Origin: an uncultured Actinomycetes bacterium
GTDB lineage: Bacteria; Actinomycetota; Actinomycetes; Nanopelagicales; Nanopelagicaceae
Direction of reading: 5' to 3'
Length of the DNA: 64,000 nucleotides
Assembly: GCA_903878415.1 (NCBI GenBank)
Contig: CAIRHO010000038.1
Coordinates: 1 to 64,000, forward strand
Shown here: in pieces, positions 3,653 to 18,922 of the stretch
How positions within the stretch are numbered: position 1 is the stretch's first letter
Layout: every line of letters starts with the position of its first letter
Notes under the pieces: generated by a model
What the model was told of the DNA's origin: nothing
Databases searched by the model: none
What the model saw: only the letters and a program-made list of their open reading frames with translations
Made by a program: the position numbers and the translations under genes

Positions 3653-5167
3653 TTATGAAATAACTTTCTGCCAGATTTTGTAAAGTGCATCCGCAGCCGC
3701 TGGCGTTGCAGTCATAATTCCACCAGTTTCTGGAAATAGGTTTACAGTTCCAGTCTCGTCGTACACCACGCCGCCAGCTTCATGCACAATAATTGCTGCG
3801 GCAAGGTGATCAATTGGGCTGAAATGTCCGATAACTGCACCAACACCACGATTAGCGGCTACGCCATTCAAAGTTAAGGTTCCGGATCCCATAATTCGCA
3901 TGGTGCAGAAGTTTTTCGCAAGTTCATCAAGTAGCCCAAGCATTCCGGGCCAAGGTTGATATGCAGCTAACTCTGTAGAAACTATTCGACTGCTCAGCGG
4001 ATTATCTATCCCAATTAAATTTTCAACTTTGAGTGGCTTGCCATTTAATTTTGCACCTTTGTCTTTTGCTGCTTCATATAGTTCATCGCGCCATGGATCA
4101 ATTACGATTCCAAGTAATGGCGTGCGATTAAAAGCTAGCGCAAGTGAGAATGAACTCCATGGCATGCGGTTTGCAAAATTTGTGGTGCCATCAATTGGGT
4201 CTAAATACCAAGCAGGCTGATCGGCAAGATAGGTGCCGCCCATCTCTTCGCCCACGAAATTATGGCCAGGAAAATTTGCCGAAATTACTTCTCGAACATG
4301 AGCTTCAATCATCACATCGATCTCGGTAACAATGTCTGCTGGATTTTGTTTCAATTCAATTTTTCCTGGGTCCATCGATTTTGCAACTAAAATCGCCCAT
4401 TTTCCAAGATCTCTGGCAACTACTAGAGCGCGATCTAGGTCAATATCCGCAGCGCTCTTCTCATTCTTTGATGCTAGTTCTGGTTCGCTAAGTACTCGCT
4501 TTAATAGCGCAAGCTCATTAGTAGTTACAGAATCAATTCCGATGACTTTTGCCCAACGCATTGTGGCTTCATCATCAACGGTCCAAATTGAAACTTTACA
4601 ACCAAGCGCATGAATAGCATCAACTTTGCTCTTGGTTAAGAATGAATAGTGGGAATTTATGAAAGTTGGCTTTAGCTTTGCAATATCCGCAGATGTCAAA
4701 GTTGCATTAACATTCCAAGGCATCCAGATATTAGCGCTCTCTGAAAGGGAGCGAATTATCTGCATTCCTTCTAGATTTCCGCACCAATAAATAGTTGCGC
4801 CACTCTTTGATGCAACTTCAAATGCTAATTTGGCAGGATCGCTCTCTTCCATGTCAATCATCAAAATTGATTGTGAATTTTCAAAGAGTGGCAATACATC
4901 GGAAAGCAGCGGAACTTTATTCTCGCCTGCCCCTAGTTCAGAAATTTCTGCCCATGTAACTTCCGAAACTTTTTTATCTAAACCCCAGAGCCGTTCAAAC
5001 GTTGGGTCGTGGATTACAACCACTTTGCCATCTTTAGAAATCCGCACATCGATTTCAACTACTGCAGCACCAGCATCAATCGCAGATTTTATTGCAACGA
5101 CTGTGTTTTCCCGGAAGCGACTAGAATCGCCACGATGCGCAGAAATATTTGTTGAGTTAGTGGACAT
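3653..5167 (-). CDS. Fusion protein: glycerophosphodiester phosphodiesterase + inositol monophosphatase
   Basis: Two enzymes occupy one 504-residue chain. Residues about 7-225 are a compact GDPD domain: HR at 11-12, metal-binding E38 and D40, H53-D54, a later MIDME at 104-107, and the closing VSIWTVDDE...IDSVTTNE segment. Residues about 245-504 are an inositol monophosphatase-type domain: GEE at 306-308, DPIDGTTNF at 323-331 and the third metal site SPID at 450-453, where the usual Trp before Asp is Ile. GDPDs cleave glycerophosphodiesters, and IMPases remove phosphate from inositol phosphates. Both active sites look complete and no signal peptide is seen, so it should be cytoplasmic. It follows the ABC ATPase gene by 5 bases. 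Hydrolysis of imported glycerophosphoinositol to inositol is an inference. Confidence 0.88.
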   Translation of the reverse strand: MSTNSTNISAHRGDSSRFRENTVVAIKSAIDAGAAVVEIDVRISKDGKVVVIHDPTFERLWGLDKKVSEVTWAEISELGAGENKVPLLSDVLPLFENSQSILMIDMEESDPAKLAFEVASKSGATIYWCGNLEGMQIIRSLSESANIWMPWNVNATLTSADIAKLKPTFINSHYSFLTKSKVDAIHALGCKVSIWTVDDEATMRWAKVIGIDSVTTNELALLKRVLSEPELASKNEKSAADIDLDRALVVARDLGKWAILVAKSMDPGKIELKQNPADIVTEIDVMIEAHVREVISANFPGHNFVGEEMGGTYLADQPAWYLDPIDGTTNFANRMPWSSFSLALAFNRTPLLGIVIDPWRDELYEAAKDKGAKLNGKPLKVENLIGIDNPLSSRIVSTELAAYQPWPGMLGLLDELAKNFCTMRIMGSGTLTLNGVAANRGVGAVIGHFSPIDHLAAAIIVHEAGGVVYDETGTVNLFPETGGIMTATPAAADALYKIWQKVIS

Positions 5168-5172
5168 TAAAA

Positions 5173-6189
5173 TTAAGCAGTTCTTACTAGCTTGCCATCC
5201 CGATAAATCAGCGCTTTAGTGATGTTAGCAAAGCCGGCATCGCCAGCTTTAGGAACTTCACTTGATACAAATGCGCGTAGTTCTGCATCATTACGCTTTA
5301 AGTAAACTTCATAAAAATGTCCGCGTGGCACAACTAAAGTAACGGTTGCAGCAACGCTGCCAGGTACTTGGTTTTTGCTAAAGAAAACATCTTCCGGTCG
5401 AATTCCAATGACATCACTACCAGCTGAAATCGCGCCGTTTTCATAGGATCCGGTAACACGATTGAGCGATCCAATAAAGTTCGCTACATATTCAGTTTGT
5501 GGAGCATCATAAAGTTCTTGCGGTGTACTAAATTGTTCAATCCGACCATCGTTCATAACTGCAATTCGATCTGAGATTGAAAGTGCTTCATCTTGGTCAT
5601 GGGTCACAATTACTGTAGTAATGCCAAGTCGACGCTGTAGTTCACGAATATCTTCTCTAACTTTAACGCGAAGCTTTGCGTCAAGATTCGAAAGTGGTTC
5701 ATCGAGCAAGAGAATGTCCGGTTCTTGAACTAAAGCTCGAGCGAGTGCAACACGTTGTTGTTCGCCGCCAGATATTTGAGCTGGGCGCGAATCTTTATGG
5801 TGCATTAGGTTCACCAATTCAAGGACATCGTGTACTCGTTTTTCAATCTCAGATTTCGACATTTTTCTTACCTTTAGCGGATATGCAACGTTCTTAAAAA
5901 CTGTCATGTGTGGCCAGAGCGCATAATTTTGGAAAACCATTGCACTTGGACGCTTCTCTGGTCCTATTTCAGTGACATCTTTACCGGCTAGGAAAACTTT
6001 TCCAGATTCCGGAATTAAAAATCCAGCAATCATGCGAAGTGTCGTGGTTTTGCCGCAACCTGATGGACCGAGCAGTGAAACCATCTCGCCCTTGTTAACT
6101 ACAAGGTTTAAGTCATCGATGATTACTCGACCACCTAATATTTTGCGTAGGCCGACGAGCTCGAGACCTTGTCCATTTTGATTCGCCAT
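5173..6189 (-). CDS. ABC transporter ATP-binding protein (PotA/FbpC-like)
   Basis: A complete nucleotide-binding subunit of 338 residues. It carries Walker A GPSGCGKTT (about 42-50), the signature SGGEQQRVALARAL, Walker B ILLLDEPLSNLD and the switch His in VIVTHDQDEA. A C-terminal TOBE-like region (GIRPEDVFF onwards) is typical of importers for polyamines, ferric iron, 2-aminoethylphosphonate and glycerol phosphates. It lies downstream of the binding protein and two permeases and directly upstream of the GDPD-IMPase fusion, which resembles the arrangement of ugp loci where a diesterase travels with the importer. Substrate class cannot be set from the ATPase alone. Confidence 0.93.
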   Translation of the reverse strand: MANQNGQGLELVGLRKILGGRVIIDDLNLVVNKGEMVSLLGPSGCGKTTTLRMIAGFLIPESGKVFLAGKDVTEIGPEKRPSAMVFQNYALWPHMTVFKNVAYPLKVRKMSKSEIEKRVHDVLELVNLMHHKDSRPAQISGGEQQRVALARALVQEPDILLLDEPLSNLDAKLRVKVREDIRELQRRLGITTVIVTHDQDEALSISDRIAVMNDGRIEQFSTPQELYDAPQTEYVANFIGSLNRVTGSYENGAISAGSDVIGIRPEDVFFSKNQVPGSVAATVTLVVPRGHFYEVYLKRNDAELRAFVSSEVPKAGDAGFANITKALIYRDGKLVRTA

Positions 6190-6208
6190 TGCTATCTACT
6201 CGCTTTCA

Positions 6209-7051
6209 TCATTTGATTTGGAAACCTTCAGCCAATTGGCCACCGATGATGTGCTTACGTGCTAAACCTATTAGGAGGACTGATGGGATCGTTAAAAGTA
6301 TCGAAAACACAGCAGTAACTTGAATTGGGTAAGTTTCGACAATCGCATACATCGCAGTTGGCATTGTATAAATCTGTGGCGCACCTACTAAATATGTGCC
6401 TTGTGCTTCATCGAACGAATAAATGAATGACATAACCATCGCAACTAGAATTCCAGGCATTGCCATTCGAAGCGTAATTGTGCGAAATACCCGGAACTTG
6501 CTGGCACCGGCATCTCGAGCTGCTTCTTCTAATGATTTCGGAACGGCGGCAAAGGCCGCAGCTGGGATCCAGGTCATAAAAATAATGGTCCCTAGTACTT
6601 GCACAATAATTACGCCAACCATTGTGCCCATCAAATTTAAGAAGTAATAAAGCGTTGCAATTGTTGCGAAGAGTCCAATCTTTGGAAATGCATTAGATGC
6701 GAACATCATAATTAGAAATGTTCTACGGCCCCAATAATTATAACGAGCCGATGCATAAGCGGCCGGCAAGCAGATTACTGCTGAAACGATTACTACTATT
6801 GGAGAAATAATTAGCGAATACCTTATTGCAGAAACAAGCGTTGGAACTTCAAATACTTTACGGAACCATTCCAAAGTCCATCCAGTTGGCTTGTAACTTG
6901 GATAGAGCCACTCCACCACAAAAGCGTGAAGCGCTAACCAGATCAAAGGTCCGACAATTAAAAGCATCATAAAGATAGAAAAAGCTACGAGTATTGCTTT
7001 TACACCCATTGACTTAGTGTGGAGATTAAGCGGCTGTACATCATTGGCCAT
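6209..7051 (-). CDS. ABC transporter permease (PotC/PhnV-like)
   Basis: An integral membrane permease of 280 residues with about six hydrophobic segments and the coupling-loop EAA motif (SLEEAARDAGASKFRVFRTI). The frame can be extended upstream to 7093, but the start chosen here is ATG at 7051, which shares one base with the TGA of the previous permease (TGATG) and follows a GGGAGAG ribosome site. This arrangement implies translational coupling and equal production of the two permeases. It forms the membrane channel together with the 7051-7992 product. Confidence 0.9.
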   Translation of the reverse strand: MANDVQPLNLHTKSMGVKAILVAFSIFMMLLIVGPLIWLALHAFVVEWLYPSYKPTGWTLEWFRKVFEVPTLVSAIRYSLIISPIVVIVSAVICLPAAYASARYNYWGRRTFLIMMFASNAFPKIGLFATIATLYYFLNLMGTMVGVIIVQVLGTIIFMTWIPAAAFAAVPKSLEEAARDAGASKFRVFRTITLRMAMPGILVAMVMSFIYSFDEAQGTYLVGAPQIYTMPTAMYAIVETYPIQVTAVFSILLTIPSVLLIGLARKHIIGGQLAEGFQIK

Positions 7052-7992
7052 CAGACTCTCCCACTCTCTTTCGCACTTCGGAAATTTGCCCAAATATAAG
7101 ATATGGCAATACCGGAAGCGGCTGCGAAAACTATGAATGCCATGACGACCGATTGTTGTGGTCGATTGTATGCAGTAAAGAAATTAGTAATTTCCACACC
7201 AAACATGGTTGGCTGATTTGGTCCTAAGAAGTATGGAATAGTAAAAGAACCTAACACCCCGATAGAGGTGAAGGTTGCAACGATAATTATTGGGATTAAG
7301 GCGAGCGGCAACATTACAGTTCTAATAATCGTTATTAAACTCGCGCCAGCATCTTGTGCCGCCTCAATTAAAGCATTCGGAACCGATTGAAATCCAGATG
7401 TGACCATCAATATTGCAAATGGCAGCGAAGTCCAAATGGAACCGATAATCACGGCAAGCATTGTTGAAGTTATTTGCGGAATATCAAGCCCGAATGAGTT
7501 GAAAATTGTGCGATAAAGGCCAGCACTTCCATAAAATGTGTAAAGCGCCCAAGATGAAATAACTACCGGAATAAATAGCGGTGTGAGCGAAAGTCCAGTT
7601 AATATCGAGGAAAGTTTTCCACCGCGGAGTCGTTGCAATAAGCCAACTCCAATTGAAAAAATTAATACCAATATAGTTGCGACAAATGAAACTATTAGCG
7701 TTGTTTTTAGATCTCCGGCAAAACGTGGATCCGCAATTACATCTTTATAAGCCTGTAGGGTAAATAACTTGCCATCTCGGCCGCGAACATCTTGACCAAT
7801 AATTGAAATTACTTCGTTGAGGCCACCGGTATATCCAATGGAAAGAAAAAAAGCTAAACCAATTGGTAGCCCGATAAATATGCCGAGCACCAAAATAGGT
7901 GGCAAGGCCATGAAGAAACCAAGAAGAGAGAGCTTTGAGTCTTTCGACTCAAAGCTCTCTTTAGCGACTTGGTTTGTAACCGCAGCGCTCAA
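7051..7992 (-). CDS. ABC transporter permease (PotB-like)
   Basis: A 313-residue permease with about six membrane segments and the EAA loop (LIEAAQDAGASLITIIRTV). The longest frame starts at TTG 7992 (MSAAVTNQ), 5 bases after the binding-protein stop, but no good ribosome site precedes it. An internal ATG (MALPPILVL, residue 28) would remove most of the cytoplasmic N-terminus. A strong 15-bp hairpin lies within codons about 11-22 of the longer form, so if the internal ATG were used, the hairpin would sit in the untranslated leader. Start assignment is therefore uncertain; function as importer subunit is clear. Confidence 0.88.
   Translation of the reverse strand: MSAAVTNQVAKESFESKDSKLSLLGFFMALPPILVLGIFIGLPIGLAFFLSIGYTGGLNEVISIIGQDVRGRDGKLFTLQAYKDVIADPRFAGDLKTTLIVSFVATILVLIFSIGVGLLQRLRGGKLSSILTGLSLTPLFIPVVISSWALYTFYGSAGLYRTIFNSFGLDIPQITSTMLAVIIGSIWTSLPFAILMVTSGFQSVPNALIEAAQDAGASLITIIRTVMLPLALIPIIIVATFTSIGVLGSFTIPYFLGPNQPTMFGVEITNFFTAYNRPQQSVVMAFIVFAAASGIAISYIWANFRSAKESGRV
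7927..7960 (-). repeat. Perfect 15-bp inverted repeat with GAAA tetraloop at the permease start
   Basis: Bases 7927-7941 (AGAGAGCTTTGAGTC) are the exact reverse complement of 7946-7960. In the leftward transcript the four-base loop reads GAAA, a GNRA tetraloop that stabilises RNA hairpins. It lies 40-75 bases downstream of the substrate-binding-protein stop. Such hairpins commonly protect or attenuate the mRNA after the binding-protein gene, giving more binding protein than permease. The unusual point is that it lies inside the longest permease reading frame. Confidence 0.85.
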
Positions 7993-7997
7993 TCTAT

Positions 7998-9140
7998 TTA
8001 CTTGCCAGGAACTTCAAGCGCCCATTGATTTTTGAAGTCAGTTGAGTTACTTGATAGGTAGCCAGGACGAAGTGTTGAGATATCTGTACCAACAGCAAAC
8101 TTGCTTTGGTTAGCTTCGCTCAACAGCGTTACTGGAATTACTGGATAACCGTTAAGTGTGCCACCAACGATGATGTTCTGAGCTGCTGGTGAAAGTACCC
8201 AGTTAATGAAACGTTGCGCTGCAACACCTTGGCGAGAGCCCTTTGGGACTCCTAACATTGCTGGGCCACCAGTTAAAGCTGGTCCGCTGATTTGAGCAAC
8301 TTTCCAATAACTTGGAATTGTTCCGGCTTTTAGACCGCTAAGGAACTGATCTGACCAAACTGTTGCCATATCGACTGATCCATTAGAGACCAACGAAAGA
8401 GTTGCAGCATTGCCGGATGGGTAAGTTCCATTTTTGCCATATGTGTAAGGGTTTAGAGATTTGAGTACATCAAATCCTGCCTTCCATTTAGCTTGGAGCG
8501 GCTTGTTAACTTCATTTACCAATGTCTTGATATCTGCATCAGTCATGTACTTATCGATAACGGATTGTGCGAATGCATATCCACTACCGCCGCCTGATGG
8601 CTGGTTGTATGTGAAACGACCTGGGTTTGCTTTGATCCAAACAAGAAGGTCATCCATTGTCTTTGGTGGCGTGGCAACAACTTTTGAATTGTAAGCCAAG
8701 AGAACTGTTGAAGCACGATATGGAATTCCGCCCTTAGCCAACTCCATTAATGAATCAGGCACTTTGGAAATATTTGGAATTCGAGAAGTTGAAGGAATTG
8801 TTAAAAATCCTTTTAATCCAAGTTCCTGAACAAATCCAGCTTCAATAACATCAAATCCTGCATCTTTCTTTAATTTGGCCGCAGCCATAATTTTCGCGAG
8901 AGTAAGCGCATCATTTTTTCCATGAAGATCGAAAGAAGATACGTCAACGTTGTAATTTGGGTTTGCTTTTTCAAATGCAGGAATTAATTCTGTAAGCCAC
9001 ATTTTTTCAACGTTGGTATCTCCCGATACATACAAACGAACTTGAAATACTGCAGCGTGGCTTGTGGATGCAGTGAAGCCAAGAGTGGCGACTGCTAAAC
9101 CAGCTACTGCAAGTATTGATACGAGTTTATTTTTACGCAC
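7998..9140 (-). CDS. ABC transporter substrate-binding protein, secreted
   Basis: A periplasmic/extracellular solute-binding protein of 380 residues. The N-terminus (MRKNKLVSILAVAGL) is a classic Sec signal peptide ending at SHA-A, with no lipobox Cys, so it may be soluble or held by another anchor. The body fits the SBP_bac_1/6 fold of iron, polyamine and phosphonate binders (AYNSKVVATPPKTMDDLLVW; LGVPKGSRQGVAAQRFINWVLSP). The frame extends to a TTG at 9158, but a strong GGAGGAGG ribosome site lies 8 bases before GTG 9140, which is the start chosen. It is the first gene of the seven-gene operon. Confidence 0.92.
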   Translation of the reverse strand: MRKNKLVSILAVAGLAVATLGFTASTSHAAVFQVRLYVSGDTNVEKMWLTELIPAFEKANPNYNVDVSSFDLHGKNDALTLAKIMAAAKLKKDAGFDVIEAGFVQELGLKGFLTIPSTSRIPNISKVPDSLMELAKGGIPYRASTVLLAYNSKVVATPPKTMDDLLVWIKANPGRFTYNQPSGGGSGYAFAQSVIDKYMTDADIKTLVNEVNKPLQAKWKAGFDVLKSLNPYTYGKNGTYPSGNAATLSLVSNGSVDMATVWSDQFLSGLKAGTIPSYWKVAQISGPALTGGPAMLGVPKGSRQGVAAQRFINWVLSPAAQNIIVGGTLNGYPVIPVTLLSEANQSKFAVGTDISTLRPGYLSSNSTDFKNQWALEVPGK

Positions 9141-9206
9141 TAAAAGTGCCTCCTCCAAGTAATAAGGAATAGACCGGATGTCGATTTCCTTCGAATAGGT
9201 AAGATA

Positions 9207-9212
9207 TAAACT
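9207..9212 (+). promoter_or_regulatory. Candidate -10 (TAAACT) for leaderless start at ATG 9219
   Basis: TAAACT is followed by exactly six bases and then ATG 9219, the same layout seen before many genes in this window. That ATG opens only a 20-codon frame that overlaps the start of the DUF6454-like gene. Inferred from spacing alone. Confidence 0.45.
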
Positions 9213-9218
9213 AGCAGT

Positions 9219-9281
9219 ATGTTAGGCATCTTCGAAGAGTTAGGCTCAATTCCGAATGAAATCCGCGTTAACTATCCTTGA
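9219..9281 (+). CDS. Possible leaderless 20-codon upstream ORF
   Basis: ATG at 9219 opens a 20-residue frame (MLGIFEELGSIPNEIRVNYP) ending at TGA 9279-9281. It starts at the expected position for a leaderless message and spans the ATG (9256) of the next gene in another frame, so it could control that gene by reinitiation or by blocking. No homology is recognised and the ORF could be fortuitous. Confidence 0.3.
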   Translation: MLGIFEELGSIPNEIRVNYP

Positions 9282-10107
9282 ACTTGTAGCGCGCCTAAAT
9301 CGGGGTACGAAATGGGAGCTAGCAGAGCGAATTCCTCTTGCTTTCCCAACTCATCACCCCCAAGGTTTAGCTTTTGTAGGCGATTACATTTTCCTTTCAT
9401 CGGTCGAGGTTTTAGAAAAACCACTAAATGTATTTGATCCGACGCTATCGACCCCTGGGCGCGGTATTGGTCACATGTTTGTAACCGATCACGCTGGGAA
9501 ACTACTAAAAGATATAACCATAGGTTCTGGCGATATGTATCACCCTGGCGGAATAGATTTCGATGGCACAAATGTTTGGGTGCCGGTCGGAGAATATAGA
9601 CCAAACGGTAAGAGCATGATGTTAACTATTGATGCAAAAAATTTTCAGGTTACCGAAAGGTTTCAAGTAAAGGATTCGATTGGGTGGGCGTTAAGTAACT
9701 CAGAGACCGGTTCCATATATGGTGGAAATTGGGGATCTCGCGAGTTTTATGCTTGGAGCTCTGATGGTAGAGAACTCGATCGTTGGAAAAATCCAAGTAG
9801 TTTTATTGACTATCAAGATTCTCAGTTCGCTGGTAACGGTCACGTGATTTGCGGTGGAATCGCCAACTTGCCGCAGTCAAATGGGTTAGGCGATTATGAA
9901 TTGGGCGGGATGGCCATAGTTGACTTTACTAACCGACGAATTAATTATGAAACACCAATTCAATTCTTCAGCAAGGCGGGTCATGTACTGACCCGAAATC
10001 CATTTGCACTCACAAGCGAAAACGATGATTTGTTCCTGCATGTTGCACCTGATGATGGTTTTGATCTTAATGGCACGGAGTTATTGAAGTTCAAGGCCTG
10101 TAATTAA
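9256..10107 (+). CDS. DUF6454-like beta-propeller protein of unknown function
   Basis: This 283-residue protein has repeated propeller-like blades with Gly/Trp/Asp turns (THHPQGLAFVGDYIFLSSVEV; YHPGGIDFDGTNVWVPVGEYRP; SIYGGNWGSREFYAWS; FAGNGHVICGGIANLP). The opening THHPQG and the YRP and NWG motifs match my memory of the DUF6454 family, but the assignment is not certain. No signal peptide is visible. It is divergent from the importer operon and the only rightward gene before iolC. ATG 9256 has only a weak upstream AGG; a 20-codon ORF overlaps its start. A carbohydrate- or lactone-related role fits the neighbourhood but is not shown. Confidence 0.7.
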   Translation: MKSALTILELVARLNRGTKWELAERIPLAFPTHHPQGLAFVGDYIFLSSVEVLEKPLNVFDPTLSTPGRGIGHMFVTDHAGKLLKDITIGSGDMYHPGGIDFDGTNVWVPVGEYRPNGKSMMLTIDAKNFQVTERFQVKDSIGWALSNSETGSIYGGNWGSREFYAWSSDGRELDRWKNPSSFIDYQDSQFAGNGHVICGGIANLPQSNGLGDYELGGMAIVDFTNRRINYETPIQFFSKAGHVLTRNPFALTSENDDLFLHVAPDDGFDLNGTELLKFKACN

Positions 10108-10167
10108 TTACTTTAGGAAATTTTAATTCTTTATCACTGCATAAATCGGTCTCGCACCTCTAAAAAA

Positions 10168-11046
10168 TCAAAGTATAGATTTTAGAAATTCAATACTTTC
10201 TCTAACCGCTGAAATTGGACCGGCTCCAACTGCTGGAGCTTGATCGAGCATCACATCTTGTTCTAATACTAGTTTGCCTTCGTAATTAATACCATCAAGA
10301 AAGCGAATTACTTCAGAAATTTGAGCATCGCCCTTGCCAAGCGGCTTGTACATGCCATTTTTTACCTCAGTCGAATATGTAGAAGTTCGATTTTGAATCC
10401 GTGCGGCGGCGACTGCATCGCAATCTTTTAGATGAACATGTTTAACTCGTGAACCCGCGCGTTTAGCAATATCTAAAGGTTTGCCGCCACCAACCACAAT
10501 GTGCCCAGTATCAAGACATAAGTTGATATCAGTTTCATTTAGCAAGAAATCTAAATCATTGGGAGTTTCAAACATTGTGCCAGCATGTGGATGTAACACC
10601 ATTTCCAAACCAAATTCTTTGGCAATCTCAGTGATCATCGGTAGTGACTCCGAAAAAACTGCCTTAGCTTCGGCATCCATCGGATCTCGAGAGTCGTAAT
10701 CGCCATCTTCAGCTGGCGTAGCCAATACAAAATTACCAGCGTTGAGCTCGGCTAAGACTTCTGCTTGGCGGCGTGCCCTTTCATAGGACGCTTTCAAGCG
10801 ATCTTTTTTATGCAGAACAATTGGCACGAAAGCGCCACATAAATCCAAGCCATGTCCATCTAAAACTCTTGCTAACTCTTTTGCATCTTGCGGCAGGTAA
10901 CCATCCGGGCCTAACTCAGTTGCGGTAATTCCGCATTCGCGCATTTCACTTAATACTCGGTCGGCTTCAATTTGATAACCCCAACCGTTTGCTTCGCAAA
11001 CGCCCCATGAAATTGGCGCGCCGGCTAATTGCTTTTTCAAATCCAA
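10168..11046 (-). CDS. IolE-like TIM-barrel sugar isomerase/inosose dehydratase family
   Basis: A 292-residue AP_endonuc_2-type TIM barrel (PF01261). Family features are the opening APISWGVCE, the ITATELGPDGYLP strand, metal-ligand segments MVLHPHAGTMFETP, NLCLDTGHIVVGGG and VKHVHLKD, and the closing LVLEQDV. The family includes inosose dehydratase (IolE), which removes water from scyllo-inosose, and various 3-keto sugar epimerases. It is read from TTG 11046, which follows GGAG by 9 bases and overlaps the end of the upstream sugar kinase region. Its position beside iolCBD favours inositol catabolism. A second homologue lies at 15543-16424, and which of the two is the true IolE cannot be decided here. 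Confidence 0.85.
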   Translation of the reverse strand: MDLKKQLAGAPISWGVCEANGWGYQIEADRVLSEMRECGITATELGPDGYLPQDAKELARVLDGHGLDLCGAFVPIVLHKKDRLKASYERARRQAEVLAELNAGNFVLATPAEDGDYDSRDPMDAEAKAVFSESLPMITEIAKEFGLEMVLHPHAGTMFETPNDLDFLLNETDINLCLDTGHIVVGGGKPLDIAKRAGSRVKHVHLKDCDAVAAARIQNRTSTYSTEVKNGMYKPLGKGDAQISEVIRFLDGINYEGKLVLEQDVMLDQAPAVGAGPISAVRESIEFLKSIL

Positions 11047-11817
11047 TTAAATTTGCTCCAAAGACCAGGCTTTAACGCCACCTAAAATTCCGGCGGTATT
11101 AGAAACTATCACTACGTCATCGCCTAAAACTTGCAGAACTTCAGTGCGAATACGACGTGAATTACCGCCGCCGATATAGAGGCGATCCCAATGAAAAACT
11201 TTCCGTAGATCTTCAACCATTAATCGAATTCGGCGAGACCAGAATAGATCGCCAAGGCGCCTAAGTTCAGTCTCGCCAACCCAAGTGTCATAAGTGGTAT
11301 TTCTACGTACTGGCGCCATCGACATTTCAAAGTGCGGTGCAAGTTTTCCGCCATCAAACATTGAAAAACCAAGTCCAGTTCCGAGCGTAATTACAACTTC
11401 TAAACCAGAGCCATTGATAACTCCAGCGCCATGCACTTCAGCATCGTTTAAAACGATTGCAGGTTTTTTGAAATGTTCTGCAAATGCTCGTTGGATGTCA
11501 AAGCCTTTCCATTGCTTTTCTAGCTCTGGCTCAATTCGAGTGCGTGGACCTTTTGCATTTATATAGTGAGGTGTGTGTACAACAACGCCATGTCGCAACA
11601 TGCCGGGCATTCCTACGGTTAGGCGATCAAAATTCGGTAAACCTTTTGAAATGTCATCAATAGTTTGAATCAAATGTGTGGGTGAAAGTGGATATGGAGT
11701 TGGCACAGCTACTGGCTGCGCATGCAAAGTGCCAGCGCTATCTAGTACCGAGCCTTTGATAAATAACCCGCCACAATCTATGGCGAGAGTCATCACGCTG
11801 GTTGAATGCATCTCCAT
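11047..11817 (-). CDS. ROK-family sugar kinase, polyphosphate-glucokinase-like
   Basis: An actin-fold kinase of about 256 residues. It has a phosphate-1 motif (AIDCGGLFIKGSVLD), the substrate Asp segment VLNDAEVHGAG, an LGTGLGF phosphate-2 motif and a GGGNSRR adenosine-type turn. The compact size and TPYPLSP segment resemble actinobacterial polyphosphate/ATP glucokinases. The start is uncertain: TTG 11829, ATG 11817, ATG 11811 and ATG 11793 are in frame and none has a well-spaced ribosome site. Divergent from iolC, it leads a two-gene unit with the IolE-like protein, so an inositol-derived or related keto-sugar may be the substrate (inference). Confidence 0.82.
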   Translation of the reverse strand: MEMHSTSVMTLAIDCGGLFIKGSVLDSAGTLHAQPVAVPTPYPLSPTHLIQTIDDISKGLPNFDRLTVGMPGMLRHGVVVHTPHYINAKGPRTRIEPELEKQWKGFDIQRAFAEHFKKPAIVLNDAEVHGAGVINGSGLEVVITLGTGLGFSMFDGGKLAPHFEMSMAPVRRNTTYDTWVGETELRRLGDLFWSRRIRLMVEDLRKVFHWDRLYIGGGNSRRIRTEVLQVLGDDVVIVSNTAGILGGVKAWSLEQI

Positions 11818-11891
11818 GTATATAGTCAAGCAAAATCTCGTTCAGAAAGATAATCGGAGTGCTCGGGATATCTTTGCTACGCGCATATATG

Positions 11892-11897
11892 TAGAAT
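11892..11897 (+). promoter_or_regulatory. Candidate -10 (TAGAAT) of leaderless iolC
   Basis: TAGAAT, then six bases, then the iolC ATG with no ribosome site between. This predicts transcription starting at or next to the start codon. No clear -35 is visible. Confidence 0.6.
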
Positions 11898-11903
11898 CCA
11901 CAC

Positions 11904-12845
11904 ATGTTAGACCTCCTCACCATTGGCAGAATTAGTGTTGATTTATATGGTCAGGAAGAAGGTCACGGCTTATCTGATCCGCAAACATTTCAGAAATCTG
12001 TCGGTGGCAGCCCTACAAATGTTGCGATCGGGACCGCTCGATACGGCCATAAAACAGCGGTAATTACTGGAGTAGCAAGTGATGCGCTCGGCGAATTTGC
12101 AATTGGTGAATTGAAGAAATTCAGCGTCTCAACAGAATTTGTAATTAAAACTCCTGCTGGCAAAACCCCAATTGTGGTTGCGGGAATAAAAGATCCAGAT
12201 AGCCCAGAATTTATTTTTTATCGCGATAGCAGCGCGCCAGATACTAAAATTGAAACCTCAGCATCATTAATATCAGCAGTTAAGGCTGCCAAGTATTTTT
12301 GGTTTACTGGATCTACGCTTTCGCAAGCGCCGCTTTCAAATACCGTAATTGAGCTACTCAAATCCAGAAATGGTGAAGTTATCTTTGACCTGGATTATCG
12401 ACCTTCGTTTTGGAGCTCTCCAGAGTCTGCTCATAAAGAAATTTCAGCTGCGGTTAAATATGCAACAGTTGCGATTGGAAACTTGGAAGAGTGCGCTGTT
12501 GCAACTGGCTTACCGAAAAACTCTAGCGCTGCGGAATTTGCTGCTGCTTTACTTACAATGGGACCTAAGTTAGCAATTGTTAAGGGCGGCGCTACAGGCG
12601 TATTGGTAGCTCATGGACATAGCGCCACTGCAATTCCAGGGTTACGTATAAAAACTAAATGTGGCTTAGGTGCCGGCGATGCATTTGGAGCAGGCGTGGT
12701 GCACGGTTTGTTATCTGGCTGGAGTCCAGAAGATTCAGTTTCCTTTGCAAATGGCGCTGGAGCTTATGTTGCTTCCCAATTAATGTGCAGTGATGCAATG
12801 CCCACTGAAGTTCAAGTTCGCGAATTGATGGAGCGTTCAAAGTGA
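11904..12845 (+). CDS. iolC: 5-dehydro-2-deoxygluconokinase
   Basis: A 313-residue PfkB-family kinase. The N-terminal LTIGRISVDLYGQEEG and GGSPTNVAIGTARYG are close to known IolC proteins, and the anion-hole/catalytic-base motif GLGAGDAFGAG lies at about residues 254-264. IolC phosphorylates 5-dehydro-2-deoxy-D-gluconate in myo-inositol breakdown. It begins a three-gene operon, overlapping iolB by four bases (GTGA), and appears leaderless. The following steps (IolJ aldolase, IolA) are not in the window. Confidence 0.92.
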   Translation: MLDLLTIGRISVDLYGQEEGHGLSDPQTFQKSVGGSPTNVAIGTARYGHKTAVITGVASDALGEFAIGELKKFSVSTEFVIKTPAGKTPIVVAGIKDPDSPEFIFYRDSSAPDTKIETSASLISAVKAAKYFWFTGSTLSQAPLSNTVIELLKSRNGEVIFDLDYRPSFWSSPESAHKEISAAVKYATVAIGNLEECAVATGLPKNSSAAEFAAALLTMGPKLAIVKGGATGVLVAHGHSATAIPGLRIKTKCGLGAGDAFGAGVVHGLLSGWSPEDSVSFANGAGAYVASQLMCSDAMPTEVQVRELMERSK

Positions 12846-13720
12846 GCCAACGCTTCTTCCCATTTAGCTCTGGCATTAAATCGATAACTCCAGAAATGGC
12901 TGGGTGGCAATATTCCGGATTACAAGTAATAAGCATTCCGGCTGGGAAAACCGATATTTCTCAATACTTTTCTGGAGATATTGAAGCGGCTTTGATTCCA
13001 TTAAACCTGCAAAATTTTAAAGTTTCCATTTCTGGCAAAGAATATTTATTAATTGGGCGATCCGGAGTTTTTGTTGGTGCGAGTGATTGGGTTTATGTAG
13101 CATCTAATGAAAAGGTTGAGATAAGTACAGATACCGCTGGAGAAGTTGCAATTGCAACCGCTTCTGTAAAATCAAACTTCCCAAGTCGATATGTTGCGAA
13201 AATTAGTAAAGTGGAAATTCGTGGAGCAGGCATAGCTACCCGTGAAGTTCGCCCCTTTATGCATCCAGATCTATTTCCAGATGCAGAAAAATTGATGGCA
13301 GTTGAAGTTATTACTCCAGATGGCAATGTATCTAGCTTTCCGCCACACCGACATGATGGCATCAAAGGTTGCGAAGTGGAGAATGAAGAAATTTATTATT
13401 TCAGAATCGGCAAGATTTCAAGTGCCCATGGCGAAAGCGAAGGTTTCGGACTTCATCGAACTTATTCTGCGCCGGAAGATCCTGAATTCTTTGATGACAC
13501 CGTCACAATTCATGATGGCGATATTTACTTAGTTCCCCGTGGTTACCACGGACCTTGCGCTGCGATGCCGGGTTATCCGATGTACTACTTAAATGTTCTC
13601 GCAGGTCCGAGCCGAAAGCGCACTATGGATTTTTGCGACGATCCCAACCATGCTTGGCTTAGAGATAGTTGGAAGAACCAAATTCCCGATCCCCGAGCTC
13701 CCTGGCAGGTGAAGCAATGA
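12842..13720 (+). CDS. iolB: 5-deoxy-glucuronate isomerase
   Basis: A 292-residue bicupin of the KduI/IolB family. The metal-binding cupin segment FPPHRHDG and later GFGLHRTYS with YLVPRGYHGPCAAMPGYPMYYLN match IolB, which converts 5-deoxy-glucuronate to 5-dehydro-2-deoxygluconate. It starts at GTG 12842, overlapping the iolC stop. The next gene, iolD, starts within its stop codon (ATGA), so the three are translationally coupled. Confidence 0.92.
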   Translation: MSQRFFPFSSGIKSITPEMAGWQYSGLQVISIPAGKTDISQYFSGDIEAALIPLNLQNFKVSISGKEYLLIGRSGVFVGASDWVYVASNEKVEISTDTAGEVAIATASVKSNFPSRYVAKISKVEIRGAGIATREVRPFMHPDLFPDAEKLMAVEVITPDGNVSSFPPHRHDGIKGCEVENEEIYYFRIGKISSAHGESEGFGLHRTYSAPEDPEFFDDTVTIHDGDIYLVPRGYHGPCAAMPGYPMYYLNVLAGPSRKRTMDFCDDPNHAWLRDSWKNQIPDPRAPWQVKQ

Positions 13721-15546
13721 CTTTGATGACGACATCGCAAGCCATAGTTCGCTGGTTGACGGCGCAGAAAATAATTATTGATGGTGAAGTTAAACCTTAC
13801 TTTGCTGGAACATTTGCAATTTTTGGCCATGGCAATGCGCTCAGCCTTGGTGATGCGCTCTTTGATTCACAAAATGAGATGAAAACTTTCCGTGGCCAAA
13901 GTGAAGAAGGAATGGGTTTAGCTGCGGTTGCTTATGCCAAGGCAATGCGCCGCCAACAGTGCATGGTGGTAACAACTTCAATCGGACCAGGTGCGTTAAA
14001 TGTCGTTACTGCAGCCGGAACTGCGTTGGCAAATCGATTACCGATGTTAATTTTGGTTGGCGATACATTTCAGAGCAGAACACCGGATCCAGTTCTGCAA
14101 CAAGTCGAACATTTTGGTGAACCATCAACAACGGTTAACGATGCGTTCCGTCCAGTAGTTAGATTCTGGGATCGGATTACTAACCCTTCTCAAATTTTAA
14201 GTGCGTTACCGCAAGCGTTAATGACGATGTTAGATCCAGCTAGTTGCGGTCCAACTTTTTTTGCGTTGCCACAAGATGTGCAAGCAACAGCATTTGATTA
14301 TCCGGCAGAATTCTTTAACGAAACTACTCATGAAGTCCCAAGACCTCGCCCTGATTTAAATGAATTGAATAAGTGCGTTGCTCTGATAAATAACGCCAAG
14401 CGCCCAGTATTAGTTGCGGGTGGTGGCGTTCATTACTCACTTGCCGAAAAAGAACTTGCAGCTTTTGCCAAAGAACAACAGATTCCTGTAGTTGAAACTA
14501 TGGCGGGAAAATCTTCGCTCCCGTGGAGCAATCCCCTACTTGTTGGCCCACTAGGTGTTACTGGCTCAGATCCAGTTAATGAATTGGTAAGTGAATCCGA
14601 TTTAATTATTGCAATCGGTACTCGGTTGCAAGATTTCACTACTGGTTCTTGGACCTTATTTGGAGATAAAGATATCGTCGCTATAAATGCCGCCCGCTTT
14701 GATGCAACTAAACGACGTGCAAGCGCCGTAGTTGGTGACGCACTAGCCACAATTTCAGAGTTAAGAACCCAAGTTAAGCCAACTAATAGAGCTGATTGGA
14801 TCGCTCGAGCTAAAACGTTAAAAAATAGCAGCGTGGTGTTACGTACTAGCCGTGAGAAATTGAAATCTGAATTACCAACATATGCCCAAGTTGTAATTGC
14901 GGCTAATGAAATTGCTCGCCCTGAAGATTATGTTTTAACCGCAGCCGGAGGTTTGCCTGGCGAGTTAAATAACAATTGGCTCTCCAAATCAGTTGCTTCA
15001 TTTGATTGCGAATATGGTTTTTCATGTATGGGATATGAAATTAGCGGTGCATTTGGCGCAGCTATTGCGCAGAAAGATATGAAGAAAACCGGCCGGGTGA
15101 TTGCAATGACCGGCGATGGTTCTTACATGATGCTTAACTCAGATATTTACAGCGCTGTACTCCATGGATATCCATTGACTTTAATACTCTGTGATAACGG
15201 TGGCTTTGCTGTGATTTCTAGATTACAGACCGGTAATGGCGCAGCTTCATTTAGAACCATGATTACTGAAAATGAGTCCGCCGCCAGGGTCGATTTTGTA
15301 GCGCATGCAAAATCTATGGGAGCTAATTCCCATCGAGTTACTTCAGTTTCAGAACTTACTAAGAAATTACTAGATACTGCTAACTCCAAAGAAGTTGAAG
15401 TAATTGTTATTAATACGGCACCAACTACTTGGACTGAAGGTGGCGCATTCTGGGAAGTTGGTATTCCTGAGGTTTCTGATAAGAAATCAATTCAAGAAGC
15501 TCGTGCTAAATTAATTGATGGCAAGAAAGCCCAGCGGAAGTTTTAG
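13717..15546 (+). CDS. iolD: 3D-(3,5/4)-trihydroxycyclohexane-1,2-dione hydrolase (ThDP-dependent)
   Basis: A 609-residue ThDP enzyme that opens the ring of diketo-inositol. The N-terminal domain has FRGQSEEGMGLAAVAYAKA with the catalytic Glu. The central NAD/FAD-like domain follows (VLVAGGGVHYS; DLIIAIGTRLQDFT). The C-terminal cofactor domain has MTGDGSYMM ... CDNGGFAVI, the GDG-X-NN-type Mg-ThDP motif. The frame extends to 13669, but ATG 13717 overlapping the iolB TGA (ATGA) is preferred. Its last four bases overlap the convergent IolE-like gene. Confidence 0.93.
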   Translation: MTLMTTSQAIVRWLTAQKIIIDGEVKPYFAGTFAIFGHGNALSLGDALFDSQNEMKTFRGQSEEGMGLAAVAYAKAMRRQQCMVVTTSIGPGALNVVTAAGTALANRLPMLILVGDTFQSRTPDPVLQQVEHFGEPSTTVNDAFRPVVRFWDRITNPSQILSALPQALMTMLDPASCGPTFFALPQDVQATAFDYPAEFFNETTHEVPRPRPDLNELNKCVALINNAKRPVLVAGGGVHYSLAEKELAAFAKEQQIPVVETMAGKSSLPWSNPLLVGPLGVTGSDPVNELVSESDLIIAIGTRLQDFTTGSWTLFGDKDIVAINAARFDATKRRASAVVGDALATISELRTQVKPTNRADWIARAKTLKNSSVVLRTSREKLKSELPTYAQVVIAANEIARPEDYVLTAAGGLPGELNNNWLSKSVASFDCEYGFSCMGYEISGAFGAAIAQKDMKKTGRVIAMTGDGSYMMLNSDIYSAVLHGYPLTLILCDNGGFAVISRLQTGNGAASFRTMITENESAARVDFVAHAKSMGANSHRVTSVSELTKKLLDTANSKEVEVIVINTAPTTWTEGGAFWEVGIPEVSDKKSIQEARAKLIDGKKAQRKF

Positions 15547-16424
15547 TTAGTTAGCGCAGCTTGAATATTAGCCATCGACACCGCAGAAGCTTCTTGCGAA
15601 GGCTCCCAGGCAGTGTCTTGTTCGCTCATTAACCATCCAGAATAATTTAATTTATCGAGCGCAATAAATAACTCTTTAACTTTCAATAGTCCGGTGCCAG
15701 CTGGAACAAAGAGTTTTAACTCATCAACCGCAAAACCCATGGTTTCAACTTCTTTTGAGAGCATCTTCGCGAGTACTTCCCCGCTGACATCCTTCACATG
15801 TATGTGAGTTATTCGATGGCCATATTCAGATACTGCTACAACTGGATCACCGCCGCCAACAATCCAATGACCCACATCTAAACAGAGCCCTATTTTTTCA
15901 CTAAGCATTGCCATTAATTTCTTAGTTTCGCGCGGAGTTTCGATATAGGTAGCACCATGTGGATGAAATGAAGATTTCATCCCGTGGCTTGCAGCAACCG
16001 CCGCATGCCGCTCTACGAATTCAGCCATAACTTTAAAACCCGTTTCGGAAAGTCCGGGACCGTTATCCGCATTTCCAGCGCTCCGGTCGCGATCTTCGGA
16101 ACCATCCGCCGCAAACACAATCATTTCAACGCCAGCACCCGCAGCCTGCTTAATTATTAATTCAGCTTCAGCTTCTGCTCCTGGCAACAGACCATCCTCA
16201 TTACATTTAATTGGCAAATATTGTTCGGCAGGCGCAACGTTATATTTTTTCATCAACTCGCGAAATTCCGAGGATTCGGCTTGTTCACCTGAAACTTGAA
16301 TTCCTGCAAAACCATACTGAGCGATTTCTAAAAGAAATTTCTCTTTTTGGTTCGGATCATATTTCCAATTCAAGGGAACTATGCCAACTTTTGCATTGTG
16401 CAATCTAATTCTCGGATTTGTCAT
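15543..16424 (-). CDS. Second IolE-like TIM-barrel isomerase/dehydratase
   Basis: A 293-residue sugar isomerase/epimerase barrel. It has the metal segments KSSFHPHGATYIETP, IGLCLDVGHWIVGGG and ITHIHVKDVSGE, and closes with WLMSEQDTAWEP. The HPHG...TGHW/DVGHW...HVKD pattern fits inosose dehydratase and inosose isomerase relatives (IolE/IolI/IolH). It is leftward, convergent with iolD with a 4-base overlap, and shares one base with the upstream glycoside hydrolase stop (TAATG). With the homologue at 10168-11046 it brackets the iolCBD genes. Assignment to IolE or IolI is open. Confidence 0.83.
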   Translation of the reverse strand: MTNPRIRLHNAKVGIVPLNWKYDPNQKEKFLLEIAQYGFAGIQVSGEQAESSEFRELMKKYNVAPAEQYLPIKCNEDGLLPGAEAEAELIIKQAAGAGVEMIVFAADGSEDRDRSAGNADNGPGLSETGFKVMAEFVERHAAVAASHGMKSSFHPHGATYIETPRETKKLMAMLSEKIGLCLDVGHWIVGGGDPVVAVSEYGHRITHIHVKDVSGEVLAKMLSKEVETMGFAVDELKLFVPAGTGLLKVKELFIALDKLNYSGWLMSEQDTAWEPSQEASAVSMANIQAALTN

Positions 16425-17707
16425 TAGAGAACCATCATAACCAAATCAAGGAGAATAGTTGACCAACTAAAATCTGGTGCGCCGCGGCCAGAGGCGCTCT
16501 GTGGGTTGTAATATTCACGAACACCACTTTTACGCATCGCAACGATGCTTTGATTCGCAATCACTCGAGCAAGATCTACTCTTCCATGTCGCAATAAGCC
16601 ACGCGCTAAATACCAATTGCTATTAATCCAAGTTGGTCCGCGCCACACTAGATTTCCGCCAACCGTTTCTGGACGATAAGTCGGATGGTTCATTGCAGTG
16701 CTAGGTATTGGAAATTCCGCCCAATACTCCTCTGGATTGAGCAGATGAGCCATCAATGCTTCGACTTTTTTAGGCGCTAAATCTGCCAACAAGAGCGGCA
16801 TTAGCGAGGTAAATGTATTAACTCGAAGTTTCTCATTCTCTTTGCCGTTTACATCGTAATAGAGGCCATCTGTTTCATCCCAACAAAGTTCTTCTAAGGA
16901 ATCTCGAGCTTTCGCTGCACGAGCTATATAAATAGCGGCCCCAGCCTCATCTTTAATTTGCAGGCAGAGCTCTGCAAGAACTCTTAAATTTTCAATATAA
17001 ATTACATTTACCATTACATCTGCAACAACAAAATGATTTAACGCAATCATCTTCTTTGGATCTCGATTAAATTTATCGTAGGGGTCGCAAATCGAGTGCC
17101 AACCGCGATCCCAACTTTCGTGCTCCTCATCTTGAATGTTCATTAGCTCATCCCACTTAGGAGAGTGATCGAGGCCAGTCTCATCGGGTTGGACCACGCG
17201 AATTAACCCGTCACCAAATGGATTTCTAACATTATGCAACCATTCATAGAACCTACGAACACTCGGCAATACTTCTTTGATGAATTCGTTGCCGCGGCCA
17301 CGTTGTGCGACTGCTTGCACAGCTTCAGCTAACAAGGGTGGTTGCATCTCATCTGATAAGTATTTTGATCGGAATGCAATCGCGTAAGTTGAAACCATCT
17401 CTTCAAAACTATCGCGTTGCCAGAATGTGACGTGCGAAACAAAGCCATCTTCGTGTTGATTCTTTAATAGACTTTTTATCTCAGCTTCGGCTTTTGCTAA
17501 ATCAATATGGCTCAGCGCAATTGCATGAAAACAAGAATCCCAGAACCATTGAAATGGGTAAGTTACTGAAGAAGGACATGTGAAATCAAAATCATGACCA
17601 CACCAAGTTGCGTGGCCGCGCTGGCGATTTTTTATATGGATATTTGTCACTACCGTTTTTAACCATTGCAAATCTTCCGGAGTAGGAGCGGTACTTTTTT
17701 CTATCAT
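16424..17707 (-). CDS. MGH1-like / GH63-type glycoside hydrolase
   Basis: A 427-residue (alpha/alpha)6-barrel glycosidase. Recognisable segments are FQWFWDSCFHAIALSHID, PDETGLDHSPKWDEL and VWRGPTWINSNWYLARGL, as in mannosylglycerate hydrolase MGH1 and related GH63 enzymes; D of WDSCF and the D/E region near the TGLD segment are expected to be catalytic. No signal peptide is seen, so it should act on an imported or internal glycoside such as glucosylglycerate, mannosylglycerate or a glycosylated polyol. It is translationally coupled to the IolE-like gene. ATG 17707 may be leaderless (AATAAT, seven bases). Confidence 0.78.
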   Translation of the reverse strand: MIEKSTAPTPEDLQWLKTVVTNIHIKNRQRGHATWCGHDFDFTCPSSVTYPFQWFWDSCFHAIALSHIDLAKAEAEIKSLLKNQHEDGFVSHVTFWQRDSFEEMVSTYAIAFRSKYLSDEMQPPLLAEAVQAVAQRGRGNEFIKEVLPSVRRFYEWLHNVRNPFGDGLIRVVQPDETGLDHSPKWDELMNIQDEEHESWDRGWHSICDPYDKFNRDPKKMIALNHFVVADVMVNVIYIENLRVLAELCLQIKDEAGAAIYIARAAKARDSLEELCWDETDGLYYDVNGKENEKLRVNTFTSLMPLLLADLAPKKVEALMAHLLNPEEYWAEFPIPSTAMNHPTYRPETVGGNLVWRGPTWINSNWYLARGLLRHGRVDLARVIANQSIVAMRKSGVREYYNPQSASGRGAPDFSWSTILLDLVMMVL

Positions 17708-17794
17708 GCTTCGAATTATTATGCAGATACTCGCTACTTTTTACCAAATTCGCTAAGATTTCATGGAAATAAGTCACATAATTTGGAGGAAAGC

Positions 17795-18922
17795 GTGAGC
17801 AATCAGATCGTTCGTGTAGGAGTAATAGGTGCTGGCGCGGTCGCTTCTTCCGTACACCTCCCGATTCTCACGCGACGGAGTGATCTCTTCGCAGTTGCTG
17901 CAATTGCCGATTTTAATATTGCTGCGGCTCATTTGCTGGCGGACCGTTTTGGAATAGTTAATAGATTTCCCTCTCCTGAAGAAATGTTTGCATCATCATT
18001 GATAGATGCCGTTGTAATTTTAAATTCGGGAAGCCATGCTGAAGTTGTCGTTAAAGCTCTCAATTCTGGCTTAGATGTATTCTGCGAAAAACCACTCGCC
18101 TACTCAAGAGAAGAAATGAAATCTATAGAAGTTGCACTAAGTACTTCTGGCAAAAAACTCATGATCGGTTACATGAAAACATTTGATCCCGCAGTAACAG
18201 CGGCAAAGAAACTTATTAAAAGTCGCCCACGTACGGTGGATGTTGTCGTGCTGCATCCAAGTGGCGAGAGCCAGCTTGCAACAACGGAAATTTCAGTAAC
18301 ATCTGCGCCAGCACCAAAAGAATTGATTGAGAAATTTAAGAGTAGCGACCGACAGATCCAAGTTACTGCCTTGGGCGAAGCTGCGGCGGATTCTTTTGGA
18401 AGTTTTTATACCGATGTAATTTTAGGTAGCGTTATTCATGAGTTATCCGTTTTACGGGCTCTAGATATACATATCAATGAAGTTGATTTTGTGGATCGTT
18501 GGCCAAATGACGGCAGTGAAAAAGCTCATTCCATAATTATTAATGCACGTACTGCCGACAATGTCAGAATCACAATTAGATGGTTCTATTTAGATCAATA
18601 CCCGCTCTACCAAGAAGAAATTCGATGGGTAAACGAGTTCGAAGGACATCACATCATCTTCCCTAGCCCATATATTCTTCGAGTTCCTACAAAATTGATT
18701 TCAACGAAACGAATCGGACTGGATCATGAAAATACCACCACGGAGTCGTATTTACCTTCATTCGAGATTGAACTAGCTGCTTTCCATACTCTTGCCACAA
18801 CTGGAAAACAAGATGCCGACCCAATTGCCGATGGAAACGAGGATTTAGAAATCTCGCTTAAAATTGCAAAAGGAATATGTATCCGCGAAGGAATTGCAGT
18901 AGGTGGAAACTTAAAAGCATAA
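17795..18922 (+). CDS. Gfo/Idh/MocA-family oxidoreductase
   Basis: A 375-residue NAD(P)-dependent oxidoreductase. The Rossmann motif VGVIGAGAVASSVHLPIL, the EKPLAYS cofactor motif (about residues 93-99 of this start) and a C-terminal alpha/beta substrate domain define the family. The reading frame extends to 17666, but GTG 17795 follows a clear GGAGGA site and places the Rossmann strand at the usual position. It could oxidise inositol or another sugar in place of the iolG that is missing from the iol operon, but it lacks features that would specifically name it IolG. It is divergent from the glycoside hydrolase. Confidence 0.85.
   Translation: MSNQIVRVGVIGAGAVASSVHLPILTRRSDLFAVAAIADFNIAAAHLLADRFGIVNRFPSPEEMFASSLIDAVVILNSGSHAEVVVKALNSGLDVFCEKPLAYSREEMKSIEVALSTSGKKLMIGYMKTFDPAVTAAKKLIKSRPRTVDVVVLHPSGESQLATTEISVTSAPAPKELIEKFKSSDRQIQVTALGEAAADSFGSFYTDVILGSVIHELSVLRALDIHINEVDFVDRWPNDGSEKAHSIIINARTADNVRITIRWFYLDQYPLYQEEIRWVNEFEGHHIIFPSPYILRVPTKLISTKRIGLDHENTTTESYLPSFEIELAAFHTLATTGKQDADPIADGNEDLEISLKIAKGICIREGIAVGGNLKA

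Follow-up and report, generated by a model that had tools for sequence, protein, structure and literature searches.

Gene organization of the locus

The window, by which we mean the whole 64,000-nucleotide stretch of DNA that was analysed, belongs to a draft genome of 1.36 Mb whose nearest relatives are labelled acI / Nanopelagicales. All of the genes that the original prediction had placed at 3653–16,424 were found there in their expected positions. The neighbourhood also includes genes for a DUF6454 protein, a GH63-type glycosidase and a Gfo/Idh dehydrogenase, all three of which had been missed. The features are as follows:

3653–5167, minus strand: GDPD plus inositol-monophosphatase (IMPase)-family fusion, 504 aa, cytosolic (no visible signal peptide), from Pfam domains and catalytic residues
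5173–6189, minus strand: ABC importer ATPase of the MalK/PotA/FbpC class, 67–98% identical in orthologous Nanopelagicales and Cryobacterium operons
6209–7051, minus strand: ABC permease 2; start probably at ~7051 (a TTG start called at 7093 overlaps permease 1)
7051–7992, minus strand: ABC permease 1
7927–7960, minus strand: conserved 15-bp stem-loop within the 5′ end of permease 1, just 3′ of the SBP gene
7998–9158, minus strand: extracellular solute-binding protein (SBP) of the importer; nearest outside relatives in SBP–permease–permease–ATPase–GDPD operons
9256–10,107, plus strand: DUF6454 beta-propeller protein with no signal peptide seen; operon partner gene
10,168–11,046, minus strand: IolE1, IolE-like TIM-barrel protein; importer neighbour wherever found
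11,047–11,829, minus strand: ROK-family sugar kinase, polyphosphate-glucokinase-like; codirectional with the importer in relatives
11,904–12,845, plus strand: IolC, 5-dehydro-2-deoxygluconokinase (304.5 bits, NCBIfam cut-off 300)
12,842–13,720, plus strand: IolB, 5-deoxyglucuronate isomerase (218.4 bits, NCBIfam cut-off 205)
13,669–15,546, plus strand: IolD, trihydroxycyclohexanedione hydrolase (749 bits, NCBIfam cut-off 715)
15,543–16,424, minus strand: IolE2, IolE-like, candidate inosose dehydratase; best solved relatives are IolE
16,424–17,707, minus strand: GH63/MGH1-like glycosidase, a relative of Thermus mannosylglycerate hydrolase
17,666–18,922, plus strand: Gfo/Idh/MocA dehydrogenase that probably catalyses the IolG step, with a weak IolG score; also next to iol genes at six other loci (L088, L090–L093, L095)

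A conserved five-gene unit

The importer and fusion genes had been described as part of a seven-gene operon. Comparison of 23 named loci carrying the fusion gave a conserved core of only five genes, in the order SBP, permease 1, permease 2, ATPase and GDPD–IMPase fusion. This order was kept wherever the sequence sufficed, the other loci being either cut off by a contig end or degraded. The methyltransferase and dehydrogenase genes lie outside the unit. We rejected the seven-gene operon on the closest relatives (L005 and L006), where the methyltransferase is ∼5 kb downstream of the fusion; at other loci the two genes are absent or located elsewhere.

The loci with the five-gene unit include Candidatus Planktophila lacus and three Cryobacterium (50% fusion identity), and the same five genes are found in a genome of a further actinobacterial family (G424; fusion identity 40%). 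Elsewhere the unit is rare: the SBP was found outside the family in one of 395 genomes sampled across the class, and a search for the fusion in 397 genomes across the phylum again returned only G424. The invariance of the five genes across families supports the proposal that the importer and the cytosolic GDPD-phosphatase form one phosphodiester-using unit.

Several individual loci had features of their own. G269 carries the fusion twice, the second copy being partial and on a different contig (L091 and L096); one copy adjoins iol genes and the other overlaps the DUF6454 gene. G277 likewise has two fusion pieces (L054 and L098). In G291 (L012, 10,001–11,507; L093, 16,842–18,381), the fusion, ATPase, ROK and IolB frames are apparently broken by frameshifts or stops, which are probably assembly errors. 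In a fusion relative from RH-23may17-982 (L026), the GDPD half is degraded and the phosphatase half looks intact; the gene adjoins those for ArgG and the methyltransferase. The contig CAMBGS010000004.1 (L010) is titled Bifidobacterium breve, and its operon is 46–85% identical to that of the window and matches acI-type loci; it is probably a mislabelled MAG. Upstream of the unit in one Cryobacterium (L022, 1639–3618), a HAD phosphatase is fused to Exo_endo_phos beside another importer ATPase. In G028 (L018, 16,676–20,881), genes that from their sequence resemble pst phosphate-uptake genes lie downstream of the fusion operon, at a distance of a few kb.

Active sites of the fused enzyme

Pfam assigned residues 11–219 of the fusion to GDPD (1.3e-33) and residues 261–502 to Inositol_P (5.3e-44). 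The HR...E-x-D...HD motif of the GDPD superfamily (PF03009) is present, with H11, R12, E38, D40, H53 and D54 invariant in 20 orthologues. So too are the GEE, DPxDGT and C-terminal Asp of the inositol monophosphatase superfamily (PF00459), where E307, E308, D323, D326, G327, T328 and D453 are invariant in the 20 orthologues.

The phosphatase half does not conform to the IMPA1/SuhB type. Residue 446 is Ile or Val in all 20 orthologues, in place of the equivalent of Glu213, which we take to be the inositol-contacting residue in IMPases of that type; the Glu is kept in SuhB and in the genome's own paralogue on C47. This replacement argues against a strict inositol-1-phosphatase role. The best NCBIfam score of the phosphatase half was 106 bits, against a cut-off of 332.

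Since a GDPD that released glycerol-3-phosphate would need no phosphatase, the fusion of the two activities points to a cleavage that leaves the phosphate on the part of the substrate that is harder to use. The SBP starts with a signal peptide and the fusion does not, as judged from their sequences, which fits import followed by cytosolic hydrolysis.

Relatives and probable cargo class of the importer

None of the importer subunits of the window reached the cut-off of a curated importer family in NCBIfam. For the Ugp family, the scores were 319 bits for UgpC (cut-off 432), 35 for UgpA (335) and 23 for UgpE (297), with no match to UgpB. The Pot models gave 337 bits for PotA (482), 59.5 for PotB (348) and 70 for PotC (326), and PhnT2 gave 352 (458). 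The ligand could not be read from the SBP either: a phmmer search of the PDB returned only a weak match to MalE, and Foldseek placed the fold in the PotD/FbpA/MalE class at a TM of ∼0.6, with no close ligand-bearing neighbour.

The moderate scores with PotA/PhnT2/FbpC-type models and the PotD/FbpA-like fold of the SBP would suit an importer of polyamines, iron or 2-aminoethylphosphonate, with an unrelated GDPD-phosphatase gene nearby by chance. We consider this highly improbable, given that every curated cut-off was missed and that neither between families nor in the nearest outside relatives is the GDPD gene separated from the importer. Moreover, Arg148 of the SBP is invariant, which argues for an anionic ligand.

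The best plasmid-borne relatives of the SBP were from Deinococcus aetherius and rhizobia. The operon on D. aetherius pDAETH-2 (L031) has the same gene order, with an SBP 37% identical to that of the window, permeases 37% and 48% identical, an ATPase 49% identical and a GDPD gene. Unlike the window, it has no IMPase domain, and no iol or DUF6454 genes were seen within 8 kb on either side. Both there and in Sinorhizobium sp. RAC02 a GDPD gene comes after that of the ATPase, and RAC02 also has an IMPase-family gene on the opposite strand. In the more distant rhizobial relative R. johnstonii (L033), an IMPase-family gene adjoins the importer and a GDPD gene does not. That importer and GDPD travel together over such long distances argues for a phosphodiester cargo, and we regard it as very probable that the unit imports and cleaves a phosphodiester.

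The Sinorhizobium operon (L032, 4648–13,411), from an algal phycosphere, comprises the related importer with a GntR regulator, a GH4 glycosidase, a PfkB kinase, the GDPD and the IMPase, and may itself encode a pathway for a glycosylated phosphodiester.

Comparison with known phosphodiester pathways

The layout had been thought to match no described pathway, but two precedents were found. The agrocinopine operon, accABCDEFG, combines an importer, the GDPD AccF and the IMPase-family protein AccG; AccF cleaves agrocinopine A to sucrose and arabinose-2-phosphate and AccG is a putative phosphatase (PMC4526662). As proposed here, cleavage in the cytosol is followed by dephosphorylation. The GDPD and phosphatase are separate genes in acc and fused in the window, the acc cargo is sucrose-phosphate-arabinose, and acc has no inositol genes.

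When plasmids were searched with the fusion, those of Agrobacterium proved to carry neighbouring GDPD and IMPase genes, with an ABC importer ahead of each pair; one of these loci (L028) we read, from its gene order, as the described acc operon. In a small comparison set, the halves of the fusion matched AccF (9e-16) and AccG (2e-15). AccG also lacks the inositol-contacting Glu, having Ser there. The analogy suggests that the phosphate is probably left on the less usable product, as with arabinose-2-phosphate.

These similarities raise the possibility that the cargo is itself a sugar-phosphate diester, from which the GDPD would free a sugar phosphate and the phosphatase half the sugar. The Agrobacterium gene order and the AccF and AccG matches favour such a cargo, as does the Sinorhizobium operon, which adds GH4 and PfkB genes to the set where the window cluster has GH63 and ROK. 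However, the AccA importer is of the oligopeptide type, unrelated in kind, and the window SBP does not match AccA at E<1; the Pot-type importer of A. larrymoorei has an SBP with only 23% identity to that of the window, over part of its length. The linkage to IolB, IolC, IolD and IolE would also be left unexplained, and we therefore think an agrocinopine-like cargo improbable.

The second precedent is the route in Mycobacterium tuberculosis, in which UgpABCE and GlpQ1 handle glycerophosphodiesters including glycerophosphoinositol, which accumulates without glpQ1 (PMC12722247). The Ugp systems with GlpQ1 or UgpQ (M. tuberculosis, Escherichia coli) resemble the window in importing and hydrolysing deacylated phospholipid head groups. 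They differ in that the window SBP is not Ugp-like by sequence, and in having neither a fused phosphatase nor linked iol genes. The kind of pathway is thus already known; what differs is the fusion and the connection to inositol. Our literature search found no paper on DUF6454, on this gene layout, or on a glycerophosphoinositol importer with an inositol monophosphatase.

Association with inositol catabolism

IolB, IolC and IolD, together with an IolA encoded elsewhere in the genome, scored above their family cut-offs, as in the iol clusters of Bacillus and Corynebacterium. The IolE and IolG cut-offs were not reached: the two IolE-like proteins, whose best solved relatives are IolE proteins, scored 149 and 124 bits (cut-off 290), and the best IolG-like protein scored 94 (cut-off 355). 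From their position, we infer that these proteins functionally stand in for IolE and IolG. Unlike the Bacillus and Corynebacterium clusters, that of the window shows no dedicated inositol transporter beside it, and has two divergent IolE-like genes, extra GH63 and ROK genes and an adjacent phosphodiester importer.

Co-occurrence with iol genes, which the original prediction had named as a check, was examined across 296 genomes of the order, of which 28 carry the fusion, 77 carry iolB or iolD, and 18 carry both. Thus iolB or iolD occurred in 18 of the 28 genomes with the fusion versus 59 of 268 others (p=8e-6), and among high-quality genomes in 12 of 16 with the fusion versus 24 of 92 without (p=3e-4). 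The fusion and iolB/iolD therefore occur together above chance. Stratification by genus gave p=0.002, mostly from one genus (g13), with G290 counted as an importer carrier and genus boundaries taken from the genome listing order.

An IolE1-type gene (at least 76% identity) was found in 10 of 71 genomes searched, in three genera. Nine of the ten have the importer as its immediate neighbour on a single contig, and in the remaining genome (G267) two contigs end at the expected point. The fusion is present in nine of the ten carriers; in the tenth (G290) the importer adjoins IolE1 and the contig ends inside the ATPase gene. Same-genus relatives have 109–200 bp between the end of IolE1 and the SBP.

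The importer operon and the iol genes had been described as separate transcripts; IolE1 and ROK are in fact codirectional with the importer. In G270 and G271 (L090 and L092), which belong to one genus, ROK, GH63, IolE2, IolE1, SBP, permeases, ATPase and fusion form a codirectional run with gaps of −19 to 163 bp, from which IolB, IolD and the Gfo/Idh dehydrogenase are divergent. In G028, a non-orthologous iolABD set (35–37% identical) occupies the neighbouring place. On the fusion tree the linked genomes are on separate branches and require about three changes, which could be gains, losses or transfers. At the level of sequence, these comparisons establish the integrity of the module, its active sites, the adjacency of its genes and their association with iol genes.

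The inositol link is not universal, however, although its linkage proved stronger than first seen and the association is non-random. Four genomes (G029, G030, G098 and G102; 94–99% complete) carry the unit but neither iolB nor iolD. In Cryobacterium, G424 and G098, no iol genes lie beside the unit, which in G098 stands between purine genes. Together with the loss of the inositol-contacting Glu, these genomes argue against glycerophosphoinositol as the universal ligand.

The unit might instead be a broad importer of glycerophosphodiesters (-choline, -ethanolamine, -glycerol and -inositol), used mainly for phosphorus and glycerol, with the iol adjacency a lineage-specific convenience. This would account for the unit standing alone in those genomes and for the Deinococcus relative, which has a GDPD with neither phosphatase nor iol genes, and M. 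tuberculosis UgpABCE/GlpQ1 is a known broad route (PMC12722247). Against it, all ten IolE1-type genes have the importer adjacent, the linkage recurs on about three branches, and a glycerol-3-phosphate product would leave the fused phosphatase without a role. We consider a broad importer possible but somewhat unlikely.

DUF6454 and a conserved stem-loop

Two further features are associated with the unit. The DUF6454 gene occurred in 8 of the 28 genomes with the fusion and in none of the other 43 searched (p=3e-4, a statistic that ignores relatedness). It adjoins the unit in several arrangements, and in Cryobacterium and G269 lies directly downstream of the fusion or overlaps it. Its predicted structure is a beta-propeller, for which a fold search gave generic propeller matches and no informative relative.

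The stem-loop at 7927–7960 recurs 3′ of the SBP stop codon in the operons of Nanopelagicales and Cryobacterium that were examined. Compensatory changes were seen in 14 of 16 pairs (15 sequences), compared with 5.9 in shuffles and at most 4 on sliding. Because the best hairpin of each region was chosen, the percentage of paired positions is inflated, and the covariation may be raised to some extent. Simple scans for sigma-70 promoters and terminators were at or below shuffle level, this stem-loop excepted. Intergenic elements are known in other ABC operons, and by analogy the stem-loop probably raises the level of the SBP over that of the permeases.

A proposed pathway and its significance

The explanation that we favour, at about even confidence, is a phosphodiester-scavenging module that in this lineage is coupled to inositol catabolism. 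The SBP and ABC importer would bring a small phosphodiester, of the deacylated-lipid head-group type, into the cytoplasm, where the GDPD half of the fusion would cut the diester and the IMPase-family half would strip the phosphate from the monoester product. The products would be Pi, an alcohol and inositol or a glycosyl-inositol; the latter, if formed, could be opened by the GH63-type enzyme and its sugar phosphorylated by the ROK kinase. Inositol would then pass through the Gfo/Idh dehydrogenase (the IolG step), IolE, IolD, IolB, IolC and the genome-encoded IolA.

The ligand, the order of the steps and the origin of the inositol in the imported compound are what we infer. Whether the cargo in the linked genomes bears inositol is, in our judgement, evenly balanced. 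Glycerophosphoinositol is one candidate, which we think unlikely, if plausible, as the actual cargo; a glycosylated inositol phosphodiester fits equally well. The presence of the GH63 enzyme, whose nearest relative is the Thermus mannosylglycerate hydrolase, and of the ROK kinase points to the release of a sugar as well. It is therefore conceivable, though rather unlikely, that the linked cluster is devoted to the catabolism of a glycosylated inositol phosphodiester, such as deacylated glycosyl- or mannosyl-phosphatidylinositol, with DUF6454 as a new functional partner. Import would then be followed by cleavage and dephosphorylation by the fused enzyme, GH63 hydrolysis, capture of the sugar by ROK and degradation by the Iol enzymes.

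Because the acI actinobacteria have small genomes and rank with the most abundant bacteria of fresh water, the compounds that they take up influence how dissolved organic phosphorus and lipid debris are turned over. If the proposal is correct, lipid head groups would be a food source for these bacteria, and a class of importer to which the label 'spermidine/putrescine' is readily given would gain a testable ligand. DUF6454 would be placed in a context for the first time. The fusion would also unite in one enzyme two steps for which the agrocinopine operon has separate genes.
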